Positions 2,808 through 18,361 of a stretch of 34,404 nt of DNA are shown in pieces. A model generated the notes under the pieces. The model did not search any database, was not told where the DNA came from, and saw only the letters and a list, made by a program, of their open reading frames with translations. The translations under genes were made by a program, and so were the position numbers. Numbering within the stretch: the stretch's first letter is position 1; the number at the start of each line of letters is the position of its first letter. Origin of the DNA: Pirellula staleyi DSM 6068 (lineage in GTDB: Bacteria > Planctomycetota > Planctomycetia > Pirellulales > Pirellulaceae); the NCBI GenBank assembly GCA_945900945.1, contig CAMDKL010000057.1:1-34404 (forward strand). Direction: 5' to 3'.

Positions 2808-3524
2808 ATCGCGTATCGAAAGGGTTGCCCAGCTGCCAATTCCTAAAATTGTTGCAGGGAGATTCTCCACACGTTCCTCTTCATTCCAATGCAATATTGC
2901 GGGACAAGGTGCAAGCGGATTGTCCAAGCCTGTGGCGAGTGTCCGATTCCCTCCTAGACGCTCCCTCAATATCCATAGTCATGGCTCGCCTGCTAGCTTA
3001 CCATATCAGTTGACTGCGAAATTCCCAAATTGGTTGCCAGGATTCACGGCTGGTTGGCTAGGGTTCAAGTGTGTGGGGTGGAAAAAAATGGGGATGCCTC
3101 GAAACTGGTAATTTTCTTTCGGAAGTAGGAGGTCATCCCTATTGCAAGCGTCCGCTTCCCCTCGCTCACGCTTCGGGATTAAAACAACAAGACCGTGACT
3201 ATTTAAAGAACAATTTCTATACGATGGACAGCTACTTAGCCACAGCAAAGGGGAAATCCGTTTTTTTTTGGTAATGTTGAAGTTTCTGATTACGATAGCT
3301 TCGTACCTTGTTTCCGCTAGGGCTGACATTTCGGATATTGGGCTAAAAGTTCAGATAAGTCTGAGGTAGTCGCATAGCTAATATCAGTCATTAGTAGAGC
3401 ATGGAAATGTAACGTTGATCCCTTGGTGCTCGATGCTTTTTTTAATTGGCTTTGCCGTAGAATTTCGCTGCGAGTTTTGTTTACGTTTATTCGATTTTTC
3501 GATAGAGATTATAGAGGTTGCGGT
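2808..3524. other. Intergenic region upstream of the chemosensory operon
   Basis: About 700 bases without a supportable gene. Visible items are a run of nine or more T at 3261 and a small hairpin TACGA-TAGCT-TCGTA at 3291-3305. Several short reading frames cross the region, but none has family motifs or a ribosome binding site. The promoter of the operon that begins at 3525 should lie here, but I cannot pick it out with confidence. Confidence 0.4.
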
Positions 3525-5186
3525 ATGGGGCTTTCCAATCTTCGATTTAGAACCCGCATGATCATCTTGATTGTAATTTTCGCCGTAGGCTTTGTAGCTT
3601 CGGAGATTTTGCACAGGAAGGTGCTTTCGGAAATGCAGGTCAATGGTCCGCTCTACCAGCGGATTGCGCAGGGCAAAGACATCGTGGCAGATGTGTTACC
3701 TCCGCCCGAATACCTGGTCGAATCCTATCTGGTTATTCATAGAATTATGAATGATGCAGAAATAGAGGAGCGGGACTCGTTGATTTCCCAATTCGGTGCC
3801 TTGGAGGACCAGTACTATGAGCGACATAAGTTCTGGCTGCAGGATCTTAAGGAGCCGAAACTGAGTCAAATTAAGGAACAGCTAACGGTTAAGTCGTATC
3901 AACCTGCCCAGGCCTTTTATCGGCAGATTCGTGAAAAAATTCTCGGAAAGATCGGGAAGGAACCTGCCACGCCTGAAATGCTCGAAGCGTTCAATGGGCC
4001 AATCCGCAAGTATTATCAAGAACACCGACAAGCGATCGATGCTACGGTCCAACTATCCAATAGGCTCGTGGAAGATTTACAACTAGAAGCGTCCCAAAAC
4101 ATTAGTTGGTGGAATACCTGGCTGACCGTCTTTAGTAGTAGTTTACTTTTGTTGGTGCTAGTCGTAGGCTGGGCCATCGCGCAAAGCATCCTTGTGCCTA
4201 CGAACAAGCTGATCAATCGAATGAAGGATATCGCCGAGGGCGCTGCCGACCTAACACAGCGGGTTGATTTTAACTCTCACGATGAAATTGGTCACCTAGG
4301 CCAACTGATCAACGCAGTCATTTCGCGGATTCATGATTTGATCAGCCATGTCAGAATGTCAAGCGTACAACTGCATGCCACGGGAACCGAAATAGGAGCA
4401 GCGGCAAGCGAACAGGACACCCACGCTCAGAATTTCAGTGCTTCAGCGGCGGAGATTGCGAGTGCCGTTAAGGAGATATCGGCAACGGGGCAGGAATTGC
4501 AATCAACCACCAATGATCTTCAAAGCCGGGCTGATCAGGCTTCCAATCTGGCGGATGCCGGCCGTTCATCGCTAAACAATATGCAAGAGAGTATGCAACG
4601 ACTGGCAGATGCCACAATTTCGATCTCGACGAAATTAGGCGTTGTACGTGAAAAAGCAAGCGGCATCAATTCGGTGGTTACAACGATTACGAAGGTGGCA
4701 GATCAAACGAACCTGCTATCCATTAATGCGGCAATCGAAGCTGAAAAAGCTGGAGAAGCTGGACGAGGCTTCTTGGTGGTCGCTCGCGAGATTCGTCGAC
4801 TGGCCGACCAGACTGCGGTAGCTACGCTAGACATCGAGCAGATGGTCCGTCAGATGCAAGCGGCGGTTTCGTCGGGTGTCATGGAGATGGATAAGTTTCG
4901 TGAGGATGTGCGAAGTGGGATTACCCAAACATCGAATATCTCCGGACAGATGACGCAAATCTTGGATCAGGTACACTCCTTAACACAGCAATTCCATGGC
5001 GTGCGTGAGGCGGTTTCACAGCAATCGATTGGTGCTCGCCAAATCGATGACGCGATGACCCAGTTGGTCGGTGGGGTACGTCATGTGGCTGGAGCTGCGA
5101 AAGATTTCAACCAGGCGGCCGCGAACCTCCGAGAATCGGTGGGTACGTTGCAGGCCGAGGTTTCGCAATTCAAGGTATCGGGCTAA
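3525..5186 (+). CDS. wspA-like: Methyl-accepting chemotaxis protein, WspA-like
   Basis: About 553 residues. TM1 is near residues 12-28. It is followed by a helical periplasmic sensor region of about 165 residues, TM2 near 196-220, a HAMP segment (ILVPTNKLINRMKDIAEG) and a cytoplasmic coiled coil. The hairpin tip reads VADQTNLLSINAAIEAEKAG then RRLADQTAVATLDIEQMV. The EAEKAGE...RRLADQTAVAT wording is the signature I recall for WspA receptors, rather than for general chemotaxis receptors (EAARAGE...KLAERT). Its role would be to sense a stimulus at the membrane and control the CheA encoded four genes downstream. The start at 3525 is preferred over 3423 because AGAGG at 3513-3517 lies just upstream and TM1 then falls at the N-terminus. 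First gene of a seven-gene operon; the next starts 3 bases later. Confidence 0.9.
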   Translation: MGLSNLRFRTRMIILIVIFAVGFVASEILHRKVLSEMQVNGPLYQRIAQGKDIVADVLPPPEYLVESYLVIHRIMNDAEIEERDSLISQFGALEDQYYERHKFWLQDLKEPKLSQIKEQLTVKSYQPAQAFYRQIREKILGKIGKEPATPEMLEAFNGPIRKYYQEHRQAIDATVQLSNRLVEDLQLEASQNISWWNTWLTVFSSSLLLLVLVVGWAIAQSILVPTNKLINRMKDIAEGAADLTQRVDFNSHDEIGHLGQLINAVISRIHDLISHVRMSSVQLHATGTEIGAAASEQDTHAQNFSASAAEIASAVKEISATGQELQSTTNDLQSRADQASNLADAGRSSLNNMQESMQRLADATISISTKLGVVREKASGINSVVTTITKVADQTNLLSINAAIEAEKAGEAGRGFLVVAREIRRLADQTAVATLDIEQMVRQMQAAVSSGVMEMDKFREDVRSGITQTSNISGQMTQILDQVHSLTQQFHGVREAVSQQSIGARQIDDAMTQLVGGVRHVAGAAKDFNQAAANLRESVGTLQAEVSQFKVSG

Positions 5187-5189
5187 TCC

Positions 5190-5654
5190 ATGTTGCAGCT
5201 GATGTGTTATGCCGGCGATATGCGATTTGCCATTCCCATTCCCAATGTCGTAGAGGTGGTCGCTCGCCCTGTTTTCGAAGCGATTCCCTCGGCTCCCGGG
5301 TGGGTCGCTGGTTCCTTTGTCCATCGCGGCGTCGTAACCCCCGTAATTGATTTTGGTAACTTGGCCAACTTAGGTCAGGCTAGATTATTGTGGAGCAGCC
5401 GTGTGATTGTCGTGAACTGCCCGCGCGAAGGGACCGTACAACGCATCGGCATTTTGTTTGACAAAGCCAACGCAGCACAGGTAGCGGACAGGGCTGTAAC
5501 CCAAGAGACTACACCAGTTCAGATCTTACCTTGGGGACCAACGCTGATCGATGAAAACGGAACCTATTGCGTCCTGGATATGGCGGAGTTGCTTTCCCCG
5601 ATGCGTCATTCGCAGTTGTTTCCACACTTGGACCATACGGAGAAAGGATGCTAA
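5190..5654 (+). CDS. wspB-like: CheW-like adaptor, WspB-like
   Basis: A 154-residue single CheW domain: it starts MLQLMCYAGDMRFAIPIPNV, followed by VVEVVARPVFEAIPSAPGWV and the conserved HRGVVTPVIDF strand. CheW proteins are SH3-like adaptors that tether CheA to receptors. This is the first of two distinct CheW proteins in the operon, and a plain CheW directly after the receptor matches the position of WspB in Pseudomonas. It begins 3 bases after the receptor stop and ends 4 bases before the methyltransferase gene, so translational coupling is likely. No enzymatic residues are expected. The specific name is inferred from order; the CheW fold assignment is secure. Confidence 0.88.
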   Translation: MLQLMCYAGDMRFAIPIPNVVEVVARPVFEAIPSAPGWVAGSFVHRGVVTPVIDFGNLANLGQARLLWSSRVIVVNCPREGTVQRIGILFDKANAAQVADRAVTQETTPVQILPWGPTLIDENGTYCVLDMAELLSPMRHSQLFPHLDHTEKGC

Positions 5655-5658
5655 CTAG

Positions 5659-6981
5659 ATGGCAGACATCGATTCAGACCACATGACCAAGATCGCCGAC
5701 ATGTTGCGGCAACGAATCGGGCTTAATTCTGAATCGGTTGGTAGGCAGACGCTGCAGCAGGCAGTTTTCCTGCGAATGTCTGCGATCAACTTGCACGATA
5801 CTTCCCGATACCTCACTAGATTGCAGTCCGATCCCGTTGAGTGGCTCGAATTCATCGAGGAGATCGTCGTTCCGGAATCCTGGTTTTTCCGAGAGATATC
5901 ACCATTTGAATGCGCTCGTTTGTTCGCCCAGCAAGCGATAAAGCAGGGGAATCCAAGAGAGAAATTGAGATTCTTGAGTGTGCCTTGTTGTCGCGGTGAA
6001 GAGCCCTATTCTTTGTCAATGACCTTGATGGATGCGGGTTTTCTACCTCATCAATTTGAGATCATTGGTTGCGATTTGAGCGAACGGTCACTCTCAATTG
6101 CTCGTCGCGGATGTTATCGGGAAATCTCCTTCCGTGAAAAGGGCCTCTTTTCAAAACGTTTGACCGCAAAGTATTTCCGGCAGCATGACAAGGAATGGGA
6201 ACTGGGCTTTGACGTCCGTAGTACTGTTACTTTCCGACAGGCGAACCTGACAGCAACCGATTTCCTATGGGAGGAAACTTACTTTGATATGATCATTTGC
6301 CGGAACTTGATGATCTATATGACTGAAGATGCTCGCCGGATCGCGCTCGGCCATTTCAACCGATTGCTTGCACCGGCAGGTCTCTTGTACTTTGGGCATT
6401 CCGAATGTCGCTTAGGCACCCAAGCTGGACTCACTGCGTGGAACAAATGTTTTCCTGCGGCCTTCACCCTACCAACTCAATCCACTTTCATTGAAACAAC
6501 CTCGAAGGCATCAGTCCCACCACGACTGAATTATGACGATCCCAGGACAGCCCTGGAAATCGAACAGGTCTGGAGTCGACCTAAAGCAGAGACTCCAGCG
6601 AGTGTGGTGATTCCAGTCATGGCTAACGTCGCAGCCGCTGCGTCGAATCTGGCACTGCAAGTCGACGGGCAAGTCGAGGAACTCACCCAGGCGCGGGACT
6701 TGGCCAATCGCGGACAACTACATGAAGCCGAAACACTCTGCCAAAAGCTGCAGCATAGATGTGCTTACGATGCAGATCTGCTGTGCTTGCGAGGAGTCAT
6801 TCAGCAAGCGTATGGCAATCTCCATTTAGCCGAATCGTATTACCAAAAATCTCTATTTGTCGCGCCCAATCATGTGGAATCGCTAACGCACTTATTGCTC
6901 TTTCATCAACTAAGAGGCGAGCCTGTGCAGGCGATGAATTATCAACGTCGGTTGGAACTGGCTAAAAGCCGAGGTAGCTAG
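5659..6981 (+). CDS. wspC-like: CheR-type receptor methyltransferase with C-terminal TPR, WspC-like
   Basis: 440 residues. The N-terminal helical CheR domain is followed by the SAM-binding domain: FLSVPCCRGEEPYSLSMTL near 105-123, an acidic GCDLSERSLSIARRG motif, and MIICRNLMIYM near 210-220, all standard CheR motifs. Residues ~340-440 form tetratricopeptide-like helices (ANRGQLHEAETLCQKLQ, AYGNLHLAESYYQKSLFVAP). A CheR with a C-terminal TPR is the WspC architecture. It would use S-adenosylmethionine to methylate glutamates on the receptor encoded upstream, tuning its activity against CheB. The central linker (about 275-335) is Ala/Pro-rich and not conserved in character. Confidence 0.9.
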   Translation: MADIDSDHMTKIADMLRQRIGLNSESVGRQTLQQAVFLRMSAINLHDTSRYLTRLQSDPVEWLEFIEEIVVPESWFFREISPFECARLFAQQAIKQGNPREKLRFLSVPCCRGEEPYSLSMTLMDAGFLPHQFEIIGCDLSERSLSIARRGCYREISFREKGLFSKRLTAKYFRQHDKEWELGFDVRSTVTFRQANLTATDFLWEETYFDMIICRNLMIYMTEDARRIALGHFNRLLAPAGLLYFGHSECRLGTQAGLTAWNKCFPAAFTLPTQSTFIETTSKASVPPRLNYDDPRTALEIEQVWSRPKAETPASVVIPVMANVAAAASNLALQVDGQVEELTQARDLANRGQLHEAETLCQKLQHRCAYDADLLCLRGVIQQAYGNLHLAESYYQKSLFVAPNHVESLTHLLLFHQLRGEPVQAMNYQRRLELAKSRGS

Positions 6982-6986
6982 CATCT

Positions 6987-7691
6987 ATGAACCAGTACAT
7001 TCTCCCCAATGAATTACCGCAAATCTCCAATCCCATTGAGGAAAAACAACATTGTTGGAATCTTATTGGTGTGCATGGAGACCATAGCTGCCCAGAGATA
7101 CCCAAGTTTGTCCATTGTCAGAACTGTCCTGTATATGTTAGTGCAGGCTCCGAGCTTTTTAACCGCGAACCGCCTAGCGAGTGGCTGGAGGAACATACAC
7201 GACGACTCGCCGAACTGGATGCGGCATTGGAAAGTAACGCGGTTACCGTGCTGATTTTTCGCTTGGGTGAGGAATGGATGGCGTTCGATGTACGATCGAT
7301 CCTTGAAGTGGCTGAACCTCGCGTTGTCCACCGCGTGCCTCACCGCACAGGCAGCCATCTAGAAGGCGTCGTAAACATCAGGGGTGAATTGCAGTTATGT
7401 GTTTCCTTGGCAAGCCTGTTACGCCTCAGTAGCGACAGGCATGAGTCCGCTGAACCTCGCGGACAACAACGGTTTCTTGTAGCTGAACACGCCCGTCAGC
7501 GTTGGGTATTTCCCGTCGATGAAGTCTCGGGAGTCCATCACTTGGGAGTCCGCCAACGCACCGAAGTACCTGCGACTCTGCGACGAAGTGCTAGAAGCCT
7601 ATCGAGCGACGTCTACGATTGGGATGGAAAGTATGTCTGTCGATTAGATGCCGATAGAGTCCTCGCAGACTTACAGAGAGGCTTTCAATGA
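6987..7691 (+). CDS. wspD-like: CheW-like adaptor with Cys-containing N-terminal extension, WspD-like
   Basis: 234 residues. An N-terminal extension of about 75 residues carries CWNLIGVHGDHSCPEI and HCQNCPVYVSAG, i.e. Cys residues at conserved spacing (C...C...CxxC). A CheW domain follows: VLIFRLGEEWMAFDVRSILE, then HLEGVVNIRGELQLCVSLAS. The CWN-x-IG...CP...C-x-NCPV preamble is what I recall for WspD proteins, and distinguishes it from the plain CheW at 5190. The cysteines could bind a metal or form a structural cluster, which is inference. The stop overlaps the CheA start by four bases (ATGA at 7688-7691), implying coupled translation and a fixed ratio with the kinase. Confidence 0.88.
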   Translation: MNQYILPNELPQISNPIEEKQHCWNLIGVHGDHSCPEIPKFVHCQNCPVYVSAGSELFNREPPSEWLEEHTRRLAELDAALESNAVTVLIFRLGEEWMAFDVRSILEVAEPRVVHRVPHRTGSHLEGVVNIRGELQLCVSLASLLRLSSDRHESAEPRGQQRFLVAEHARQRWVFPVDEVSGVHHLGVRQRTEVPATLRRSARSLSSDVYDWDGKYVCRLDADRVLADLQRGFQ

Positions 7692-10630
7692 GTTCTTCGG
7701 AAATCGATTCCACGCTTTTGGATTTATTCCGCGAAGAAGTCCGTGGGCAAGTTAACGTACTCAATCAAGGACTAGTGGAATTGGAGCGGAGTTCCGATCC
7801 CAGTCAGGTCGAGCCTCTGATGCGTGCAGCGCATTCGATCAAAGGCGCGGCACGATTGATCGGTGTTGATCCCGCAGTCAAGCTCGCACATGTCATGGAG
7901 GATTGCCTGGTGGCTGTACAGCATGGAGCGTTACAGCTAACTCCCGCAGGCATTGATTACCTACTTGCTGGTAGCGATTGGTTGGCCCGGTTCGGCGAAT
8001 ATGCCGGCAATGGCTTCTCTGAATGGTTCTCGCCATACCAATCGACCATCAGTCAACTGATTCAAGATCTGGAACGTGTGCTCCTCGGGGAGTCGTTAGC
8101 AACTCCGCTCAAGATTGAATCAGCGTCGGCTTCTTCTGCGGCCAGCGAATTACCAAAACTCGCTGAAACAGTTCAGGGCGCCGAGGCTGTCACTATGAGC
8201 GTAGAACCATGGAATACCTCAGTGGCGACGGATATTGATCCAGACTCACTGACTCTGTTTCAAAGTGATATATTGAACAGCTTGGAAACTTTGAGAACTC
8301 GTACTAAAGCTTGGCATGAACGACCATTGACGGCTGAAGAGTACGCCGATTCCCAACTGGCGGCGAGAAATATACGTTGCGTAGCTGTCCTGTTTCGCAT
8401 CGAACCACTTACCCAAGTATCAAGCTTGCTTGAAAATGCGTGGCGGTCGGTTGCGCTCGAACACAGCAAGTTAAACGATGTTGTTTTCGATGTGCTAATG
8501 CGTGCGACTGATTTGCAGCAGCGCTTGGCCGAAGCTGTCGGACAGAATTACGAGCAACATGTAGCGGAAAATTCTTCCCAGATCGACGTCGTGCTTCGTG
8601 AACTCAGCGAGCAGGGCAGGTCTGCTGACTTGAAGCCCACGTACGCGCCACCCATGGTAACTCAACAAGCTACCATTAACCTCTCTACCAGGAACACAGA
8701 TGCCTCCGATTTCAATGCGCTCAGTTCTATTACAACTACTTCTGTGGCAAGCCCTTCGGTCGAGCCAGATCGTCTAGCCAAAAAACCGGTGCCGCCGAAA
8801 CCTGCGTCGGCTCCTGGGGCAATGGAACCCGAAGACACCGAAGTCCGCGTGGTCAGGGTAACCGCCAAGAACCTAACTCGTTTAATGGGGTTGGCAGGCG
8901 AGTCGCTGGTGGAAGCCCGGTGGCTACAGCCTTTTGCGCAGTCGCTTTTGAATTTGAAGCGAGATCAGGATCGCCTGACAGATGTCATTGATGAATTGGC
9001 CGAGTCCCTCTCGCCGGCAGATGCCGCTGCCAGCCATAGCTTCATCAAAGAACTGCGGCAAAAACTGTCCCAGAACCGCAACATGCTGGGTAATCGCATC
9101 GAGGAGTTTGAAAGCCACGCGCGGCGATCCGACGACTTGAATAGTAGACTCTACAACGAAGTGATTGCCAGTCGGATGCGTCCGATGAGTGATGGAGTGC
9201 AGGGATATCCTCGCATGATTCGCGATATCTCCCGACAATTGGGCAAGTCGGTAAATTTTGAGATCGTCGGCGAAACCACACCCGTCGACCGTGATATCCT
9301 GGAAAAACTCGATGGCCCGCTGAATCATATCCTCCGGAACGCGCTCGATCACGGTATCGAGACAACAGCCGAAAGAATAGCAGCCGGCAAACCGGAGACG
9401 GCAAACCTTCGCATGGAAACCAGGCACAACGCGGGCATGTTCGCCATCACGATTTCCGACGACGGGCGCGGCATCGATTTAGAAAGGCTTCGCGCGAAAA
9501 TCGTAGACCGAAAACTGAGCACGACGGAAATGGTATCTCGCATGACCGACGCAGAGCTTTACCAGTTTCTGTTTTTACCAGGCTTCTCGACTCGAGGAGA
9601 GGTTACGGAACTGTCTGGCCGTGGTGTAGGTTTGGATGTGGTGCATACCATGGCCACATCGGTCGGCGGCACGGTACGCGTGCAGTCTCAACTGGGCCGC
9701 GGTACAAGTTTCCACTTGAATCTACCAATTACGCTTTCGGTGATCCGCGCTGTGCTGGTCGACGTAGCTGGTGAACCCTACGCCTTCCCACTTAATCGCA
9801 TCGACCGATTATTACGCGTCTCACCAAATACCATCGGCTCGGTGGAGCATCGACAATTTCTACGCGTGGATGGTCAAAACGTAGGAGTAGTGTTGGGAAC
9901 GCAGATACTCCGTATGACGAAGAATCTTAGGACTCCACCACCGTCCGCAGAGACATCTACCAATCCAGCAACATCGCCTACCGCTGACGAACTATTTTTA
10001 GTGCTGTTCAGTAATCACGCGGATCAATATGGTTTGTTGGTCGATGGTTTTCTGGGCGAACAAGATTTGGTGGTGCGGCCCCTCGACCATCGCTTGGGTA
10101 AAGTGCCAAACGTGAGTGCAGCCGCCGTTTTAGACGATGGGGCACCTGCCCTGATCATCGATGTCGATGACGTGCGACGCGCCATCGAAATAATATTGGA
10201 AACCGGCAAACTCGAGCGGACCGACGAAGGCAAACGTCGTCAGGGGGACGGCAGAAAAAAACGCATACTAGTCGTGGACGACTCTATTACAGTACGGGAA
10301 GTAGAACGACAACTATTGTCGTCTCGAGGCTACGACGTAACGGTCGCTGTCGATGGCGCCGATGGTTGGAATATCGTCCGAGACGGTGATTTTGATCTGG
10401 TGATTAGCGACGTTGATATGCCCAACATGAACGGGATCGAGTTTACCAAGAAAATTAAAGCAGACTCTCGCTTACAACGCCTACCGGTGGTCATCGTGTC
10501 GTATAAGGATAGCGAGGAAGATCGCATGAGGGGCCTGGATGCAGGCGCGAATTACTACTTGACCAAAAGTAGTTTCCACGACGAATCTTTGATTGATGCG
10601 GTGTACACTTTAATCGGTGAGTCGCAGTAA
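7688..10630 (+). CDS. wspE-like: CheA histidine kinase with fused C-terminal receiver, WspE-like
   Basis: 980 residues. Domains in order: Hpt with the H-box AAHSIKGAARLIG (phospho-accepting His49); a second Hpt-like helical region (about 186-265) where the His is replaced by Arg (AARNIRC); a low-complexity linker; the dimerisation helices with RLMGLAGESLVEARWL; the HATPase with N-box RNALDHGIE, G1 DDGRGID and G2 SGRGVGLDVV; a CheW-like regulatory domain (SVIRAVLVDVAGEPYAFPLN); and a receiver (RILVVDDSITVREVE, DLVISDVDMPNMNG, YLTKSS). This is WspE architecture plus an extra degenerate Hpt, which explains the greater length. It would phosphorylate the CheB and the output regulator encoded downstream; the fused receiver may be a phosphate sink or adaptation element (inference). 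Confidence 0.92.
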   Translation: MSSSEIDSTLLDLFREEVRGQVNVLNQGLVELERSSDPSQVEPLMRAAHSIKGAARLIGVDPAVKLAHVMEDCLVAVQHGALQLTPAGIDYLLAGSDWLARFGEYAGNGFSEWFSPYQSTISQLIQDLERVLLGESLATPLKIESASASSAASELPKLAETVQGAEAVTMSVEPWNTSVATDIDPDSLTLFQSDILNSLETLRTRTKAWHERPLTAEEYADSQLAARNIRCVAVLFRIEPLTQVSSLLENAWRSVALEHSKLNDVVFDVLMRATDLQQRLAEAVGQNYEQHVAENSSQIDVVLRELSEQGRSADLKPTYAPPMVTQQATINLSTRNTDASDFNALSSITTTSVASPSVEPDRLAKKPVPPKPASAPGAMEPEDTEVRVVRVTAKNLTRLMGLAGESLVEARWLQPFAQSLLNLKRDQDRLTDVIDELAESLSPADAAASHSFIKELRQKLSQNRNMLGNRIEEFESHARRSDDLNSRLYNEVIASRMRPMSDGVQGYPRMIRDISRQLGKSVNFEIVGETTPVDRDILEKLDGPLNHILRNALDHGIETTAERIAAGKPETANLRMETRHNAGMFAITISDDGRGIDLERLRAKIVDRKLSTTEMVSRMTDAELYQFLFLPGFSTRGEVTELSGRGVGLDVVHTMATSVGGTVRVQSQLGRGTSFHLNLPITLSVIRAVLVDVAGEPYAFPLNRIDRLLRVSPNTIGSVEHRQFLRVDGQNVGVVLGTQILRMTKNLRTPPPSAETSTNPATSPTADELFLVLFSNHADQYGLLVDGFLGEQDLVVRPLDHRLGKVPNVSAAAVLDDGAPALIIDVDDVRRAIEIILETGKLERTDEGKRRQGDGRKKRILVVDDSITVREVERQLLSSRGYDVTVAVDGADGWNIVRDGDFDLVISDVDMPNMNGIEFTKKIKADSRLQRLPVVIVSYKDSEEDRMRGLDAGANYYLTKSSFHDESLIDAVYTLIGESQ

Positions 10631-10663
10631 CGCGTACCAACTAGATCAAGTGGAAGGATGCCT

Positions 10664-11713
10664 ATGCGGGTAGCAATCGTAAACGACATGTCTTTGGCGA
10701 TCGAGGCGTTGAAACGCCTGATTCTCACTAATTCTGAGTATAAAATCGCTTGGACTGCTGCAAACGGCGAAGCGGCCATCCGAAATTGTCTCGCGGATAG
10801 ACCCGATGTCATTCTCATGGATCTGGTGATGCCGGGAATATCAGGCGCCGAAGCCACCCGCGAAATCATGAAAAAATCGCCGTGTGCTATTCTGGTAGTC
10901 ACTGCCACCGTAGCCGGTAATTTCAAATTGGTAAACGAAGCCATGGGATACGGCGCCTACGATGCGGTGGAAACGCCGTCGAACAATGGCAACAGCGATA
11001 GTGCTTCCAGGCTAATGGCTAAGCTAGTTAACGTGGAACGCATCAACCAACGCCTGCAAAGAAACACAACGACTGCACCCGCTTCTTTAACCAAGCCTGC
11101 ATTTATCCCACCTGGAGGGTCGTACTCGCTTTCCAATCTACCTCCGGTCGTCGCAATGGGCGCTTCGACCGGCGGTCCCGCAGCTCTGGAAATGATTCTG
11201 TCCCAACTAAAGCCAACTTTCCCAGCAGCTATTTTGGTCGCACAGCACATCGGAGAACAGTTCGCAGCCTGCCTGGTCCAATGGCTGACCAGTCGCTGCA
11301 AAATTCTTATTCGAACAGCAGAGCCAGGCAATCGGCCCGAGCCAAGTATCGTATACATCGCCGCTACTTCCAATCACTTGATTCTGGCTAGCGACGGCAC
11401 GCTGCAGTATTCACCACATCCGATCGACAATCCGTATCGTCCTTCCGTGGACGCCTTATTTAATAGTATCGCCGACGCAGGTTGCAAGCCATGCGTGGCA
11501 GTACTACTGACAGGTATCGGAAATGACGGTGCCCGAGGCTTATTGCGTCTGCGGCAGACCAGATGGCATACAATTGCCCAGGAGGAGACCAGTTGTGTCG
11601 TTTATGGCATGCCTCAAGCTGCAGCGAAACTAGGTGCGGCGTCGCAAATCCTACCACTGAAAGAAATCGCGTGCAATTTGGAAGCTTTTTTGGGCAGTTC
11701 GTCCCCACGTTGA
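10664..11713 (+). CDS. wspF-like: CheB-type receptor methylesterase/response regulator, WspF-like
   Basis: About 350 residues. The N-terminal receiver has PDVILMDLVMPGISGAEATR with the phospho-accepting Asp. The C-terminal methylesterase has the catalytic serine in VVAMGASTGGPAALEMI, the histidine in VAQHIGEQFA and the aspartate in LLTGIGNDGARG. It would remove methyl groups from the receptor and thereby down-regulate the pathway. Two ATGs are possible, at 10658 and 10664; GGAAGG at 10652-10657 abuts the first and is correctly spaced for the second, so 10664 is chosen. It lies 33 bases after the kinase stop. In Pseudomonas, WspF occupies exactly this place and its loss locks the pathway on. 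Confidence 0.92.
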   Translation: MRVAIVNDMSLAIEALKRLILTNSEYKIAWTAANGEAAIRNCLADRPDVILMDLVMPGISGAEATREIMKKSPCAILVVTATVAGNFKLVNEAMGYGAYDAVETPSNNGNSDSASRLMAKLVNVERINQRLQRNTTTAPASLTKPAFIPPGGSYSLSNLPPVVAMGASTGGPAALEMILSQLKPTFPAAILVAQHIGEQFAACLVQWLTSRCKILIRTAEPGNRPEPSIVYIAATSNHLILASDGTLQYSPHPIDNPYRPSVDALFNSIADAGCKPCVAVLLTGIGNDGARGLLRLRQTRWHTIAQEETSCVVYGMPQAAAKLGAASQILPLKEIACNLEAFLGSSSPR

Positions 11714-11805: not shown

Positions 11806-13008
11806 ATGCAGCACCAACAATCCTCTGCGGAAAGGAACCAAACCGGTTCCGAATTCCCGATCATCGTACTGCTAGTAGACGACCAACCGATCATCGGTGA
11901 AGGGGTGCGTAAAATGCTCGCGAAAGAAAGCGACATCACCTTCCATTTCTGTAGCGATCCTACGAAGGCGATAGAATTGGCGATGCGGGTCCAGCCAACC
12001 GTCATTCTGCAAGACCTGGTTATGCCGGATGTTGACGGCTTGCTCTTGGTGAAGTTTTATCGAGCGAACAAAGCTACACGCGAGATCCCGTTGATCGTAC
12101 TCTCCAGTAAGGAAGAACCGGAGACAAAAGCTAAAGCCTTCGCTTTAGGGGCAAATGATTACCTGGTGAAACTACCTGATCGCGTGGAATTGGTGGCGCG
12201 TATCCGCTATCACTCCAACAGCTATATACGTCTGCTGGAACGGAATGCAGCGTACGCTGCGCTCGCCGAAAGCCGATTGCACATGGCCCAAGACATTGAG
12301 GCTGGTGCAAAATATCTGTATTCATTGTTGCCGGAACCCACCACAACACCGCTCCAGATCGATTGGCGATATGTTCCCTGCACCGATTTAGCCGGTGACA
12401 CGCTGGGCTATAACTGGATCGACCCCGACCATTTAGCAATTTATGTCCTTGACGTCGCGGGACATGGTATCGCTTCAGCCCTACTGTCGGTTTCGATTAT
12501 GAACGTACTGCGCGCCAGGACGCTACCAAATGTCGATTTCCAACATCCCGGTCAGGTGCTCGGCGCGCTAAATACCTCTTTCCGCGCCGAGGAATGCGGG
12601 AACAAATTTTATACGATCTGGTACGGAGTCTATTGCCAGAGCCGTCGCACACTCAGCTGGGCCGGTGGTGGCCATCCCGATGGATTACTATACGACCCAG
12701 TCACGCCAAACACGCCAATACGTCTGGAATCCCAAAACCCACTCATGGGCGTGATGGAATGGGATGAGTTCCTGACGGGATCGGTTCAGGTTACCGCTGG
12801 ATCACGACTGTATATCTATACAGACGGCGCTCATGAAATCCACAAGACCGACGGCTCGGAGTGGCTTTTTGAGGAGTTCTTGGAGTATATGAGTCAACCA
12901 CCTGAGGGCGATGTCTCACTCATGGATCGCCTGCTGTGGCACGTTCGTGAACTGAGTGGTTCGCAAACGTTAGATGACGATTTCACCACCATCGAAGTCC
13001 GTTTCTAA
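11806..13008 (+). CDS. Response regulator: WspR-like receiver fused to SpoIIE/RsbU-type PP2C phosphatase
   Basis: 400 residues. The receiver (about 18-145) has IIVLLVDDQPIIGEGVRKML and PTVILQDLVMPDVDGL with Asp70 as phospho-acceptor. It then has LIVLSSKEEPETKAKAFALG and ANDYLVKLPDRVELVARIRY, followed by HSNSYIRLLERNAAYAAL. These phrases and the helical extension match what I recall of WspR, including Asp70 itself. The GGDEF domain expected after this helix is absent. Instead residues ~190-400 form a SpoIIE-type PP2C phosphatase with the metal-binding motifs DLAGD, LDVAGHGIAS, WAGGGHP, YTDGAHE and a terminal DDDFTT. The output would therefore be dephosphorylation of a Ser/Thr-phosphoprotein, typically a STAS anti-anti-sigma factor, not c-di-GMP synthesis. 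No STAS or RsbW-like kinase gene is in the window. No clear ribosome binding site precedes 11806. Confidence 0.92.
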   Translation: MQHQQSSAERNQTGSEFPIIVLLVDDQPIIGEGVRKMLAKESDITFHFCSDPTKAIELAMRVQPTVILQDLVMPDVDGLLLVKFYRANKATREIPLIVLSSKEEPETKAKAFALGANDYLVKLPDRVELVARIRYHSNSYIRLLERNAAYAALAESRLHMAQDIEAGAKYLYSLLPEPTTTPLQIDWRYVPCTDLAGDTLGYNWIDPDHLAIYVLDVAGHGIASALLSVSIMNVLRARTLPNVDFQHPGQVLGALNTSFRAEECGNKFYTIWYGVYCQSRRTLSWAGGGHPDGLLYDPVTPNTPIRLESQNPLMGVMEWDEFLTGSVQVTAGSRLYIYTDGAHEIHKTDGSEWLFEEFLEYMSQPPEGDVSLMDRLLWHVRELSGSQTLDDDFTTIEVRF

Positions 13009-13816: not shown

Positions 13817-16800
13817 TTAAAATCCACCGTTTTCGAAGAGGTCCGCAATTGCTAGATCGGCGAGGCAACCGTGCAACTTTTGGCTTCGTAAACTCGAGGA
13901 TCCGGCGTTTTTCTCGCTAATGTTTTCCTCGCTAGTATTCGCAGTCACAGGCTCTCCTGTGAGCACTCGATCGGAAGGATTCGAATTGGAGCGAGGGCGT
14001 ACCACAATTGAGGTTTCATCAACGCTACTATGCAATCTGAATCGATGGACTCCCGCAGAGACGTCCGCCTCCAGGGAACGGGTGCTTTGCATTACGATAG
14101 AACTCGAACCGAGGCTCGTCGCAGGGGGTGCAGCGATTGCGATGGATTGGGACGCGGAGATCGTTTCGTCAATCCATCCGGTCGCTGATGCCGGCGGAGG
14201 ATCTGCGATGCCTTGAGGGTTGGTGTTTCCGGTTGCTAATGCGAAGGAACTGGTCAGTGCGTTTGTGCCAGTGCGTCCATTTGCGTACTTGTAGACGCGA
14301 TCAGTACCGCTATCCACAACCCAGATGGCATTAAGATCCTGGGTAGCGTTTGATGGGTCGAGCGTGATTCCCCTTGGCGCCGAGTTCGCCGAATTTAGCT
14401 TCCACGACGTCGCGGTACCGGAGACCAACCCGTTCGTGCCGAGAGCATACCTGTACACGGTATCGGTCGCTGCGTCATTAACTACCCAAAGGTACGGGAT
14501 ACTGTCCGTTACCCCAAAAACCACATCCTTAGGACTTGTGTTTCCGGTAGCCAATGGGAACGATGTCGCCGTTTTCGTACCGGTAGTGCCTAGTGCTGCG
14601 GCCCTCGCATAGTAGTAGACCCGATCCGCACGGGAGTCGACGATCCAGATGTTGGTGCCGTCCGTTGCAATCCCTTCAACGGTTGCGTTCGCTGCGAGTG
14701 TACCTGCAGTCCAAAAGCCAAGAGTAGCCCCAGTGTTGTTGTACACATAAACACTCTTGTTATTATCGACCACCCAGAGTGATGTGGCTTCGCTAGTGGT
14801 TGCAATGCCTCGCGGTGCTGTGTTGGCGATGTCGATTGCATAATTCTTGATCGAGCCACCATTGCTGTCGTAGCGATAATTCTTGTTAGTTATACCATCA
14901 TCCACGACGAAGAATTTCGTCGGCGGTTCGGATTCGTTGTCCAAATTGGTAAGGGAAAAATCGGCAGGATTGACCCTACTGTAAAGCAGGTCCGCCGAAG
15001 CCGCCGCTCGGAGTATCACGTTGTATACGATATTTCCATCGAAAATCGTATCGTCCACACCATTGATAGTGACGGTGACAGGTATGTTCCAATTCGTATC
15101 GGTGAAGAGGGCTTGAATTGGGCTAACCGTTCCCTCCGTCGTATCATTGGAACTAAACGGAATCGTCACGCTGGCCAACGGTTGTGACCTTAATTGGATC
15201 GTAAAGGTAACGCTGGCTCCCGCCTCGGAAGTTGTCGATCCGGAAGGTGTGCTCACGTTGATCCCAGCGGTATCGTCGTCGGTATTGGAGAGACTCGTAT
15301 CCGCTGGATCGAGGCCGTTGTAGAGCGTGTCCGTAGAACTGGTTATTCCGAATTGGATGGTGTACGCCATGTTTCCATCGTCGATATTATCATTGACACC
15401 GGTCACTGTGACGGATTGCGGTGTACTCCAGTTCGTTGTTGAGAAAACCAAACTCGCTACACTGACCGTTCCCTCCGTAAGATCGCTCGAGGAAACCGGT
15501 ATCGTAACATCGGCCGTCGGAGCCGAGAGCAGCGATACGTTGATGGTCACGGTACCGCCAGCTTCGGTGGTAGCAGTCCCGCTTGGTGCAGCAACGGACA
15601 CTCCTGCTGTCCCATCAAGGAAATCAAGAGTCCTCTTGAGAAACTCTTTTTGGTTATTCGGGCTGACTGCCGACGTGCTAATCGACTCGAACGGAACCGC
15701 CGAAAAGACGATTCCGAATCCGCCCGCAGAGTAATCGCCTCGGTAGGCAACCGCAGTGAATGGATTGGTGGTGGTCGTGAGTCCGTGAGTCAGCAAACCA
15801 GCGGCTCCGGCTACGGGTGACACAGCATCGCCGAACATCGCTGGATAGTCTGCTGGTTTCGCGATCGCCAAAGTCATACCATTCGTGATCGGATTCCCTG
15901 CGACTCCGGTTTCTGTATGGTTTGCCGTGATAAAGTCACTGTTGTACGCAGCAACTTTTAAGTAGTTTTGACGGAAGGTGGCCGAGTTGGCATTAGTGCC
16001 GAAGTTATAAATAATGTCTTGCCCTGAGATAAACATACGACCGCCGCCATTGAGATAACTCGCGATTTGCGTTTGCTCGTTCAGCGACAACCCAGCCGCA
16101 AGCGTCGCGGTAGACGTCGAAAAGTCGTAGCCCGTGTTCCAGATTACGGTCTTGTATCTCGACATATCGGTAGCCGAAGGTGTGTTTCCAGCAACCGATG
16201 AATCCCACACGTCAAAATCGAGTGCATTCGCGGTCAATGCATTTTTAAAGAAGGTTTCGTAGCCAGCACCCAGGTCGTCATCTACGAACAGAATCGTGGC
16301 CGGAGCGAGAGTCACAAACGAGAGCACCGCAGACGTAGTGGTGTTCCCCACCGCATCGGCAGACTGCACTTGATAGTAGTACGTCGTGCTAGGACTGAAA
16401 CCGGACAACATCGCGCTGTGAGCCGTTGTTAAACTTGTATTGACTGACGAGTTGTTGAGCGTGCTAGGGCTCGTGCCGTACAAAACAACCGTTGACGAAG
16501 CTTCATTAGAGTTCCAATCGATCTTGCTCGTCAACCGTTGAGGCGCAGATGCAATTCCAGAGAGCGTTGGGGCGAGCAAATCGACAGTGGCGTTTGTGGA
16601 TTTGCTGATGGCAGAATAGGTGGCGGTAATCGTGTCACCATTGGAAACAGCCAAATTGCCGTCTCCCGCGAGCGACGTTGTGAACAATCCAAACGATCCA
16701 GAGAAAAGACCAGTATTGCTCCCCGTTTCAGTAAGGGTAATCGTTTCGGTAATGGGCTCACTGGTACTTTGGACTGTGATTCGGATGGTATCTGCGACAG

Positions 16801-18361
16801 TACTACTCAAATTGTCTGCTGCATTGTTCACCAAAACATTCGCAGTCGCTGGTGCGGTATATGCGCTCCTATCGAGAACGATAGAAGCCGCTTGCTGGAG
16901 GGCTCCGTAGACGTTGAGCCGTCCACCAGTAACCGTTTTTCCAGCGAGTGATGAAGTTGACGTCGCACTGCTCAAGATTGCGGACTTGATGCTCGCCGCA
17001 CTGTAACCGGCCGCTTGGACCGACGCAAAAAGGGCAACGGCACCCGTGACGTGAGGTGTTGCCATCGAGGTTCCGTTGTAACTCGCATAGGTGCTTGTTG
17101 GGACGGAGGAATTGATATCTACGCCCGGGGCCCCGATATCGACTGTTGTTGCACCGTAGCTCGAAAAACTCGCGATGGCGCCTGCGCTGTCGATCGCAGC
17201 CACAGCGATCACGGAATCGTAAGATGCTGCGGTCTCAGTGGTTGTAGCGAAGGTGGTGTTGTAATTCGAAGGATAAGAAGCAGTTGTATCGTTGTTTGCA
17301 GTGGAGTTACCGGCGGCGGCTACGAAAAGGATGTTGCTCTTCGCGCTGCGGATGATCGCATCGTGCAGCGTTTGAGAATACCCACCTCCACCCCAAGAGT
17401 TGTTGGTCGCCACGATGTTGATTCCGTGCCGAGTCTTGAGATCGGTCAAGTAATCCAAGGCCTTGACCGCATTCGCCGTGCTCCCCCCGTTGGTTCCGAG
17501 GAACTTGGTGGAAATCATCGTCACATCCCAGTTCACTCCTGCGACGCCTGCGCCGTTCCCGCCATCGCCACCGATCGTCCCTGCAACATGGGTGCCGTGC
17601 GCGTCACCACCAGCGTCGTAGACGGTTTTGTCGTTGTTTACAAAGTCCCATCCATTGACGTCATCGATGAACCCATTGCCGTCGTTGTCGATTCCGTCAT
17701 CGGCGGTTTCATAAGGATTGACCCAAATATTGCTCGCCAAGTCTGGGTGAGTGATTTGGACACCTTCGTCAATGATTCCCACGAAGACGCTCGACTTACC
17801 GATGATGTTATCATTCCATGCCCTTTCAGCTTGGCTGCCGAAAGCATTCGTTGTACCCGTCGGCCCGACCGCCGACGGCGTGTCAGAGCTATGCATGCCC
17901 CACAGCGAGCCGTTGGTGTAATAGGTATCATTGCTGATAACGGAAGGTTTGTAGAGGTAATTGGGTTCCGCATAGACAACAGATGTATTGTTTGCAAGAG
18001 CCGCGAGCGCTTGGGATACGGAGACACCATTGCCAAGCTTGATCCGTTCCATCTGCCCCATGCCAGACGCCCGCATGGTCTTCGTAAAGATTTGTTCCGC
18101 AACATCGCCGTTTGTGGCTGCTCGCGCGATCCCACGCTGAGAATCATTTGCAACTGGCTGGTACTGGACTAGGATCTCATTTGGTACGAACTCGTAGGCG
18201 ATGGGGCGATGGGACCATCCCAAGTCCGCAGCCAACAACGTCCGAAGCTCAAGTTGCTCGAAGCCTAGAACCAGTGTACGAAGCCTGCTTGCTCGTTTGC
18301 TGGAGTTGTTTTGAACTAACTTGGATGCCCACGCATACCTTTTGCGAGAAATCCTAGACAT
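13817..18361 (-). CDS. Large secreted subtilisin-like (S8) protease with mosaic C-terminal domains
   Basis: 1514 residues. The N-terminus carries the planctomycete export-type motif FEQLELRTLLAAD (34-46). A pro-region (EILVQYQPV...VVYAEPNYLY) precedes the S8 domain with catalytic Asp198 (VGIIDEGV), His255 (DAHGTHVAGT), oxyanion Asn352 (VAAAGNS) and Ser432 (NGTSMATPHVTGA). A calcium-site-like DDGIDNDGNGFIDDVNG insert is present. After it come an Ig/fibronectin-like segment, a ThuA/GATase-like alpha/beta segment (ILFVDDDLGAGYETFF...GGGRMFISGQD), two Calx-beta/cadherin-like repeats (each with STDTLYNGLDPADTSL-type ends), and propeller-like repeats (WVVD...D-x-VY-x-Y). It is presumably a cell-surface or secreted protease. 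The start is supported by GGAG nine bases upstream on the minus strand. Confidence 0.92.
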   Translation of the reverse strand: MSRISRKRYAWASKLVQNNSSKRASRLRTLVLGFEQLELRTLLAADLGWSHRPIAYEFVPNEILVQYQPVANDSQRGIARAATNGDVAEQIFTKTMRASGMGQMERIKLGNGVSVSQALAALANNTSVVYAEPNYLYKPSVISNDTYYTNGSLWGMHSSDTPSAVGPTGTTNAFGSQAERAWNDNIIGKSSVFVGIIDEGVQITHPDLASNIWVNPYETADDGIDNDGNGFIDDVNGWDFVNNDKTVYDAGGDAHGTHVAGTIGGDGGNGAGVAGVNWDVTMISTKFLGTNGGSTANAVKALDYLTDLKTRHGINIVATNNSWGGGGYSQTLHDAIIRSAKSNILFVAAAGNSTANNDTTASYPSNYNTTFATTTETAASYDSVIAVAAIDSAGAIASFSSYGATTVDIGAPGVDINSSVPTSTYASYNGTSMATPHVTGAVALFASVQAAGYSAASIKSAILSSATSTSSLAGKTVTGGRLNVYGALQQAASIVLDRSAYTAPATANVLVNNAADNLSSTVADTIRITVQSTSEPITETITLTETGSNTGLFSGSFGLFTTSLAGDGNLAVSNGDTITATYSAISKSTNATVDLLAPTLSGIASAPQRLTSKIDWNSNEASSTVVLYGTSPSTLNNSSVNTSLTTAHSAMLSGFSPSTTYYYQVQSADAVGNTTTSAVLSFVTLAPATILFVDDDLGAGYETFFKNALTANALDFDVWDSSVAGNTPSATDMSRYKTVIWNTGYDFSTSTATLAAGLSLNEQTQIASYLNGGGRMFISGQDIIYNFGTNANSATFRQNYLKVAAYNSDFITANHTETGVAGNPITNGMTLAIAKPADYPAMFGDAVSPVAGAAGLLTHGLTTTTNPFTAVAYRGDYSAGGFGIVFSAVPFESISTSAVSPNNQKEFLKRTLDFLDGTAGVSVAAPSGTATTEAGGTVTINVSLLSAPTADVTIPVSSSDLTEGTVSVASLVFSTTNWSTPQSVTVTGVNDNIDDGNMAYTIQFGITSSTDTLYNGLDPADTSLSNTDDDTAGINVSTPSGSTTSEAGASVTFTIQLRSQPLASVTIPFSSNDTTEGTVSPIQALFTDTNWNIPVTVTINGVDDTIFDGNIVYNVILRAAASADLLYSRVNPADFSLTNLDNESEPPTKFFVVDDGITNKNYRYDSNGGSIKNYAIDIANTAPRGIATTSEATSLWVVDNNKSVYVYNNTGATLGFWTAGTLAANATVEGIATDGTNIWIVDSRADRVYYYARAAALGTTGTKTATSFPLATGNTSPKDVVFGVTDSIPYLWVVNDAATDTVYRYALGTNGLVSGTATSWKLNSANSAPRGITLDPSNATQDLNAIWVVDSGTDRVYKYANGRTGTNALTSSFALATGNTNPQGIADPPPASATGWIDETISASQSIAIAAPPATSLGSSSIVMQSTRSLEADVSAGVHRFRLHSSVDETSIVVRPRSNSNPSDRVLTGEPVTANTSEENISEKNAGSSSLRSQKLHGCLADLAIADLFENGGF

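Follow-up and report, generated by a model that had tools for sequence, protein, structure and literature searches.

The window analysed here is a 34,404-nucleotide stretch of DNA from Pirellula staleyi DSM 6068 (contig CAMDKL010000057.1), and it contains a chemosensory operon of seven genes on the forward strand. The first encodes a 587-residue chemoreceptor in the WspA position (3423–5186), with HAMP (PF00672, 38 bits) and MCPsignal (PF00015, 113 bits) matches, and is followed by a CheW in the WspB position (5190–5654; PF01584, 62 bits). A CheR methyltransferase occupies the WspC position (5659–6981; PF01739, 124.5 bits), with a weak TPR_1 match (20.8 bits, E 3.2e-4) that lies below the curated cut-off of 27.8, and a second CheW the WspD position (6987–7691; PF01584, 76.6 bits). 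In the WspE position is a CheA (7688–10630) in which Hpt, HATPase_c, CheW and Response_reg all score over their cut-offs, the last being a C-terminal receiver at residues 860–972 (93 bits), and in the WspF position a CheB (10658–11713; PF00072 and PF01339, with the NCBIfam CheB model NF009206 also over its cut-off). Analysis with Pfam places the gene at 11806–13008, which encodes a receiver-phosphatase, seventh in an operon of wspABCDEFR order. This gene order recurs, with a receiver-GGDEF gene at its end, on the annotated plasmids pMLb of Mesorhizobium japonicum and pAZKH of Azoarcus sp. KH32C (GGDEF assigned by BLAST). Given the six upstream genes and the matching proteobacterial order, the window therefore carries wspABCDEF with a phosphatase in the place of wspR. 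No STAS or HATPase_c_2-type (RsbW) match was found by Pfam among the six other operon genes of the window. The prediction that led to this analysis was made from the seventh gene, and was silent on the upstream Wsp genes (3423–11713) and on the wide spread of the architecture. The remaining genes of the window are of planctomycete type, including members of the DUF1559, PSCyt1 and PSD families; convergent with the Wsp operon, on the reverse strand at 13820–18361, lies a gene for a subtilase of 1514 residues that has a domain of the purple acid phosphatase N-terminal type.

The gene at 11806–13008 is intact, starts with ATG and encodes a 400-residue product. A receiver is found at residues 21–134 (11866–12207; Response_reg, 69 bits against a cut-off of 30), with the predicted phospho-acceptor Asp70 encoded at 12013–12015, and a SpoIIE-type PP2C/PPM phosphatase domain at residues 207–400 (12424–13005; PF07228, 117 bits against a cut-off of 25). 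Beyond these two domains Pfam gave no match at E ≤ 0.001, including none to GGDEF, HATPase or HisKA; because the C-terminal GGDEF domain is absent, the protein is not filed here as WspR. When the protein was compared with PDB sequences using phmmer, the top matches were two WspR entries (3bre, E 1.4e-55, 192 bits; 3i5a, E 6e-53), whilst the best match outside WspR was RssB of Pseudomonas aeruginosa (3eq2, E 1.8e-21, 80 bits), a difference that puts the likeness to WspR far beyond the level of a generic receiver. Among 108 distinct proteins of the same type, the window protein included, the receiver residues D25, D26, D70 and K122 are invariant, as are D198, D216, H220, D340 and G341 of the phosphatase; D391 and D392 are present in 107 of 107 members of the same set. 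We take the conserved acidic residues of the phosphatase (D198, D216, D340, D391 and D392) to be metal ligands. Judged by these domains and residues, the product joins a WspR-type receiver to a phosphatase of the SpoIIE/RsbU type that has kept its metal-site residues, and the original prediction, which had read both a WspR-like receiver including Asp70 and a phosphatase with its metal-binding motifs, is borne out on both points.

An AlphaFold2 model built from 4 sequences (mean pLDDT 68, pTM 0.46, confidence under 50 from residue 163) is of moderate confidence and serves for the helix and the fold, not for geometry. In the model, residues 126–174 (12181–12327) form one continuous helix, at low confidence past residue 163, that joins the receiver to the phosphatase. 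Foldseek matched the modelled receiver and first helix to WspR (3bre, 63% identity, 1.4 Å), and the modelled phosphatase part to SpoIIE (5ucg) and SiaA (6k4e) at 3.7–3.9 Å. The best full-length match was to RssB of P. aeruginosa (3f7a, E 1.6e-20), with a poor superposition (rmsd 11 Å), and would favour a client-binding adaptor resembling RssB that is no longer an enzyme; we regard such a role as very improbable, since the acidic metal-site residues are invariant in 107 or 108 sequences and RssB of E. coli falls, on a long branch, outside the WspR-type set in the receiver tree described below.

The association of the receiver-phosphatase with Wsp genes is maintained across lineages. Just over half of the distinct proteins (55 of 108, window included) are encoded in Wsp-type operons, called where the catalytic part of CheA is at least 46% identical; the gene lies after cheB in 34 of these 55 and ahead of the receptor gene in 21. 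Another 13 are divergent beside a gene for an Hpt-STAS fusion, 12 of which also have a more distant CheA-MCP cluster in the stretch read, whilst 23 have other che genes nearby (in most cases CheB immediately upstream, and some of them on short contigs), and the remaining 17 have no che genes in the stretch read. A second copy in the window genome is of the Hpt-STAS kind (G000, C29:226–1428), and the Hpt-STAS fusion gene divergent from this paralogue is found at 1588–2445 of locus L075. One Wsp operon (L082) contains a receiver-HATPase_c_2 gene. At the level of sequence, the Wsp pathway with a phosphatase output is a real and recurrent variant whose architecture is firm.

When the whole protein was used as the query, full-length relatives covering both domains at no less than 42% identity were found at 99 places in 96 of 297 genomes of the class; part of the 99 were counted from the search listing alone (including those in G127, G167 and G048), and the count leaves out partial matches (e.g. 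in G285 and G287) as well as weaker ones below 38%. Eight more matches in the class cover the receiver alone, at 49–60% identity, and these proved to be class III nucleotide cyclase fusions (6 by Pfam, 2 by BLAST). A query of receiver plus linker, which gives phosphatases no advantage, returned 24 places in 20 of 392 genomes of the phylum: 20 phosphatase fusions, three with an HD_5-type HD domain, one HisKA-HATPase-REC protein and none with GGDEF. Receiver-phosphatases of this type are thus frequent within the class but sparse across the wider sample of the phylum. At two loci of the window's own genus (L071 and L072), the sole match to the whole-protein query is a HisKA-receiver-SpoIIE protein (Pfam on L071). 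Outside the phylum, a gammaproteobacterial record (L027) holds a full Wsp operon with a receiver-phosphatase. Among 185 genomes of the gammaproteobacterial class there was a match in 37: two full-length receiver-phosphatases of 46–48% identity (in G749, the L027 genome itself, and in G887, the latter at C1:2315715–2316842), one weaker match (G768, 36%) and, in 32 genomes, 34 uninterrupted places that match the receiver alone. The gammaproteobacterial receiver-phosphatases of L027 and G887 could reflect transfer or misbinning.

The receivers in all loci split into two groups when compared with that of the window, with WspR-type receivers scoring at least 118 bits and others at most 79, in a comparison that lists matches of at least 60 bits. 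The distinct WspR-type receivers comprise 108 fused to a phosphatase, 8 to a cyclase, 5 to GGDEF, 3 to an HD-type domain and 1 to a histidine kinase, with 2 truncated; the figure of 108 is not a frequency, because most loci came in through queries with the window protein, and the 24 phylum places are the fairer sample. All GGDEF-fused WspR-type receivers are proteobacterial, the 5 and a further 4 that were added giving 9. Side by side with these are loci with other outputs. In L060–L067 a WspR-type receiver is followed, after a linker of the same length (51 residues), by a class III adenylate/guanylate cyclase; the L060 protein sits at an Hpt-STAS chemosensory cluster, where other loci have a receiver-phosphatase, and those of L061–L067 have no che genes in the stretch read. 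In L121, L122 and L123 (family f105) the receiver is followed by GAF and an HD_5-type HD domain, an output that may possibly degrade c-di-GMP. On the question raised by the original prediction, whether a WspR GGDEF protein is encoded elsewhere in the genome, the window genome has three GGDEF matches, none with a receiver matching that of the window at 60 bits or more. A search for WspR-type REC-GGDEF proteins with full-length Azoarcus WspR in 397 class and 392 phylum genomes found none among the returned loci and 15 GGDEF candidates, the searches scoring 5–8 candidates per genome so that a rare REC-GGDEF protein could escape. The class and phylum queries made with the window protein and its receiver likewise yielded none. 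Among the matches examined, the REC-GGDEF receivers of the phylum score at most 79 bits against the window receiver and are therefore of another type.

The length of the linker is almost constant. Counted from K122 to the output motif, 104 of the 108 phosphatase fusions, all 8 cyclase fusions and all 9 GGDEF fusions have a distance of 51 residues. In the other four phosphatase fusions (families f52 and f78, and two from f105) it is 44 residues, one heptad less; these shorter linkers need at least three changes on the receiver tree, a single clade of them not being rejected (p 0.078). The value of 51 shared across output families depends on the choice of motif, but neither the uniform length inside each family nor the step of exactly seven does. 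Constant length with a step of seven is what would be expected of a coiled coil obliged to keep its register. Nor are steps of one heptad peculiar to WspR-type proteins: in a control set of 24 further REC-GGDEF proteins, picked out by a simple pattern, the distance was 30, 37, 44, 51 or 58 in 23 and 55 in one. Passages of PMC12143880 describe RsbU as activated when a coiled coil in its linker brings the phosphatase domains together as a pair, cite RssB as an example with a receiver, and propose that sensor domains are exchangeable among phosphatases, kinases and GGDEF proteins by means of a coiled-coil linker; Wsp is not mentioned in the main text of that paper.

Phylogenetic trees were used to place the window receiver and CheA. 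The first receiver tree (90 rows, 130 columns; phosphatase rows thinned from 109 to 55) unites the WspR-type rows in one well-supported set of 73 (96*), save four divergent rows from f105, and the nine proteobacterial WspR receivers form a clade within it (98*); other planctomycete REC-GGDEF receivers, CheA receivers and RssB fall outside. In the second, from which long branches were removed and 8 long or truncated rows left out, a 95* branch separates all 76 WspR-type rows from the rest, and the support for the proteobacterial clade is 87, unstarred. In both trees the window receiver is inside the WspR-type set and outside the proteobacterial GGDEF clade, so that its original assignment to WspR stands for the wider set and not for the clade of GGDEF-linked receivers. 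The CheA tree has 45 rows and 369 columns, similar Wsp rows having been thinned out and 8 of the 10 outgroup CheA rows retained. In it, a 100* clade unites the seven CheA proteins from GGDEF systems, amid 30 from other systems, and the window CheA belongs to an 11-row clade (98*) of CheA proteins from phosphatase-type Wsp operons. The AU test did not reject trees in which all non-GGDEF systems were held as one clade, either for CheA (p 0.525, the held tree being slightly better) or for the receiver (p 0.348). As neither test is decisive, the claim that the pathway was re-wired from c-di-GMP synthesis, made in the original prediction, is not repeated here, and the reverse direction is equally allowed.

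In the receiver and CheA trees alike, the GGDEF clade is flanked on several sides by the phosphatase version. A broader idea, which we put forward tentatively and hold to be doubtful, is that the receiver with its heptad-register helix acts as a socket for at least five enzymes (phosphatase, diguanylate cyclase, class III nucleotide cyclase, HD-type hydrolase and histidine kinase), several of them under one array, and that the phosphatase is the older Wsp output from which the c-di-GMP-producing WspR is derived. It seems that the same Wsp sensor is able to drive different enzymes.

For the window operon itself, the reading that we favour, and consider reasonably probable, is a Wsp-type (ACF class) pathway in which the response regulator carries a Ser/Thr phosphatase in place of the diguanylate cyclase and acts on a STAS protein. 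The receptor/CheW array would control CheA (WspE), which would phosphorylate Asp70 of the receiver-phosphatase. The phosphorylated receivers would then pair, and the continuous helix would relay this pairing to give an active phosphatase dimer, as has been proposed for RsbU, RsbP and RssB. The active enzyme would strip the phosphate from a serine of a STAS-domain protein encoded elsewhere in the genome, and the dephosphorylated protein would bind a new partner, either an anti-sigma factor or another protein, whilst CheR and CheB would reset the receptor as in Wsp. Confidence is highest for the phosphotransfer, lower for the coiled-coil activation and lowest for the STAS target. The sign of the regulation is not fixed by anything in the sequence, and phosphorylation could turn the phosphatase off, not on, although this seems rather unlikely: WspR is activated by phosphorylation, the kept linker register suggests the same pairing logic, and phosphorylated HsbR dephosphorylates HsbA according to passages of PMC6482189.

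The STAS step in the favoured pathway is likely by family. SpoIIE-type phosphatases usually act on STAS proteins, and passages of PMC9239204 agree that these are the usual targets. At locus L194 of another genome (G386; 8000–9927) STAS (PF01740) and HATPase_c_2 genes come directly after a receiver-phosphatase gene, all three on one strand. At L070 (6533–10131) an operon of protoglobin-STAS, STAS, HATPase_c_2 and small SpoIIE genes is ended by a receiver-less phosphatase that is 54% identical to the catalytic domain of the window protein. We take this gene set to correspond to the make-up of the RsbR-RsbS-RsbT-RsbX stressosome. The phosphatases of L068–L070 (family f1, genus g3) are 54–55% identical to the window catalytic domain (Pfam on L070), and their operon is apparently a stressosome with a globin sensor. 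Across the Wsp loci, a STAS gene is present in the stretch read in 1 of 55 and an HATPase_c_2 gene in 4 of 55, the latter also in 2 more of the 23 loci with other che genes. The 6.47-Mb window genome has 7 STAS and 9 HATPase_c_2 matches, and because these counts imply about one of each by chance, the 1 and 4 in 55 are near the expectation from gene density.

These counts bear on a different target. In 54 of the 55 Wsp loci the stretch read contains no STAS gene, and Planctomycetes are rich in Hanks-type kinases, so the phosphatase might act on proteins phosphorylated by such kinases instead of on STAS proteins; against this are the SpoIIE-type match itself (PF07228, 117 bits) and the STAS and HATPase_c_2 genes at L194 and L070, and we consider it distinctly unlikely.

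The Hpt-STAS fusion was considered as a simple substrate and rejected: with the acceptor position taken, as an assumption, from SpoIIAA/RsbV, alanine or proline occupies it in 14 of 14 distinct domains (13 beside receiver-phosphatases, some of them close relatives, and one beside the L060 receiver-cyclase). It looks, from these sequences, as if a phospho-blind STAS domain had been built into the chemosensory cluster. Partner-switching control, as stated in the original prediction, therefore went too far: it is inferred from the phosphatase family, with a STAS gene in 1 of 55 Wsp loci and alanine or proline at all 14 Hpt-STAS acceptor positions. STAS proteins of the window genome that have a serine at the acceptor position include those on contigs C6, C53, C19 and C1. 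The one on C6 adjoins an RsbW-type gene, no SpoIIE match was found on C6, and this RsbV-RsbW pair is a natural candidate for the partner. Of 248 class genomes, 187 contain a relative of the C6 RsbW, but family f16, which is rich in receiver-phosphatases, has no member among those 187, and this absence weakens the case for the pair as an obligate partner.

A STAS target would also allow the pathway to reach c-di-GMP one step later, with the dephosphorylated STAS protein switching a separate diguanylate cyclase, like SiaC-SiaD and HsbA-HsbD of P. aeruginosa. The genome has both the three GGDEF matches and STAS proteins with a serine at the acceptor position, and precedents are described in passages of PMC6482189 and PMC9239204; but three GGDEF matches in 6.47 Mb are few, the Wsp loci examined contain no GGDEF except for the proteobacterial WspR ones, and we think this route fairly improbable.

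If the favoured pathway is correct, a well-studied surface-sensing and biofilm pathway would end in an enzyme that makes no c-di-GMP of its own in about one-third of the class genomes sampled (96 of 297), and this would be rarer in the phylum sample, where a WspR-type receiver is found in 20 of 392 genomes. WspR has been reported in Planctomycetes (passages of PMC6461901 and PMC9119077), and these reports may rest on the receiver alone. The loci would also provide a natural experiment for the exchangeability proposed in passages of PMC12143880, with one kind of receiver and one kind of operon joined to several enzymes through linkers one heptad apart.

Parts of this architecture have already been published. 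According to passages of PMC3447774, CheR-TPR clusters contain receivers fused to many outputs, including a 2C-type phosphatase and a mononucleotidyl cyclase; the REC-phosphatase 2C regulators of these CheR-TPR/ACF clusters show the same fusion in a cluster with CheR-TPR, whilst the passages draw no tie to WspR and the main text does not contain ‘Planctomyc’. Passages of PMC8552884 describe WspH of Burkholderia, which is likewise encoded in a Wsp operon and joins a WspR-type receiver to an output other than GGDEF. The view of the original prediction that a WspR-type receiver is unknown in such a role does not stand in that form, given the phosphatase fusions of the former and the different output of the latter. 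In the titles and abstracts found, with subscription journals mostly outside the coverage, there was no Wsp operon with a phosphatase output.

WspH is encoded on the 5′ side of its operon, as in 21 of the 55 Wsp loci here, and the two gene positions (34 after cheB and 21 before the receptor) recall those of WspR and WspH in passages of PMC8552884, in which the B. cenocepacia wsp mutants tested showed no significant change in c-di-GMP. The output of WspH is a hybrid histidine kinase and not a phosphatase, and HisKA and HATPase are absent from the window protein; a protein of WspH architecture, with a WspR-type receiver and HisKA/HATPase, is encoded at L198 in another genome. HsbR/CrsR also combines a receiver with a PP2C phosphatase, and serves a partner switch and the choice of biofilm growth. 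It differs in having a third, kinase/anti-sigma domain, whereas the window protein ends at the phosphatase; moreover, according to passages of PMC6482189, the input to HsbR comes from HptB and not from a Wsp array. The P. aeruginosa protein RssB (3eq2/3f7a) has the receiver, helical linker and PP2C fold in common with the window protein, but scores 80 bits over the whole protein where WspR scores 192 over the receiver. The phosphatases RsbU and RsbP are related through the catalytic domain, a kin of which (54%) ends the stressosome-like set of L070, but take their input through an RsbT-binding or PAS domain where the window protein has a WspR-type receiver. The closest comparison is with WspR of Pseudomonas (3bre/3i5a), whose receiver is about 60% identical; operon order and gene position are shared with annotated proteobacterial Wsp loci, and WspR fusions likewise have 51 residues from the receiver lysine to the output motif. 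The two differ at the end of the pathway, which in WspR is a GGDEF domain and in the window protein a SpoIIE-type phosphatase.
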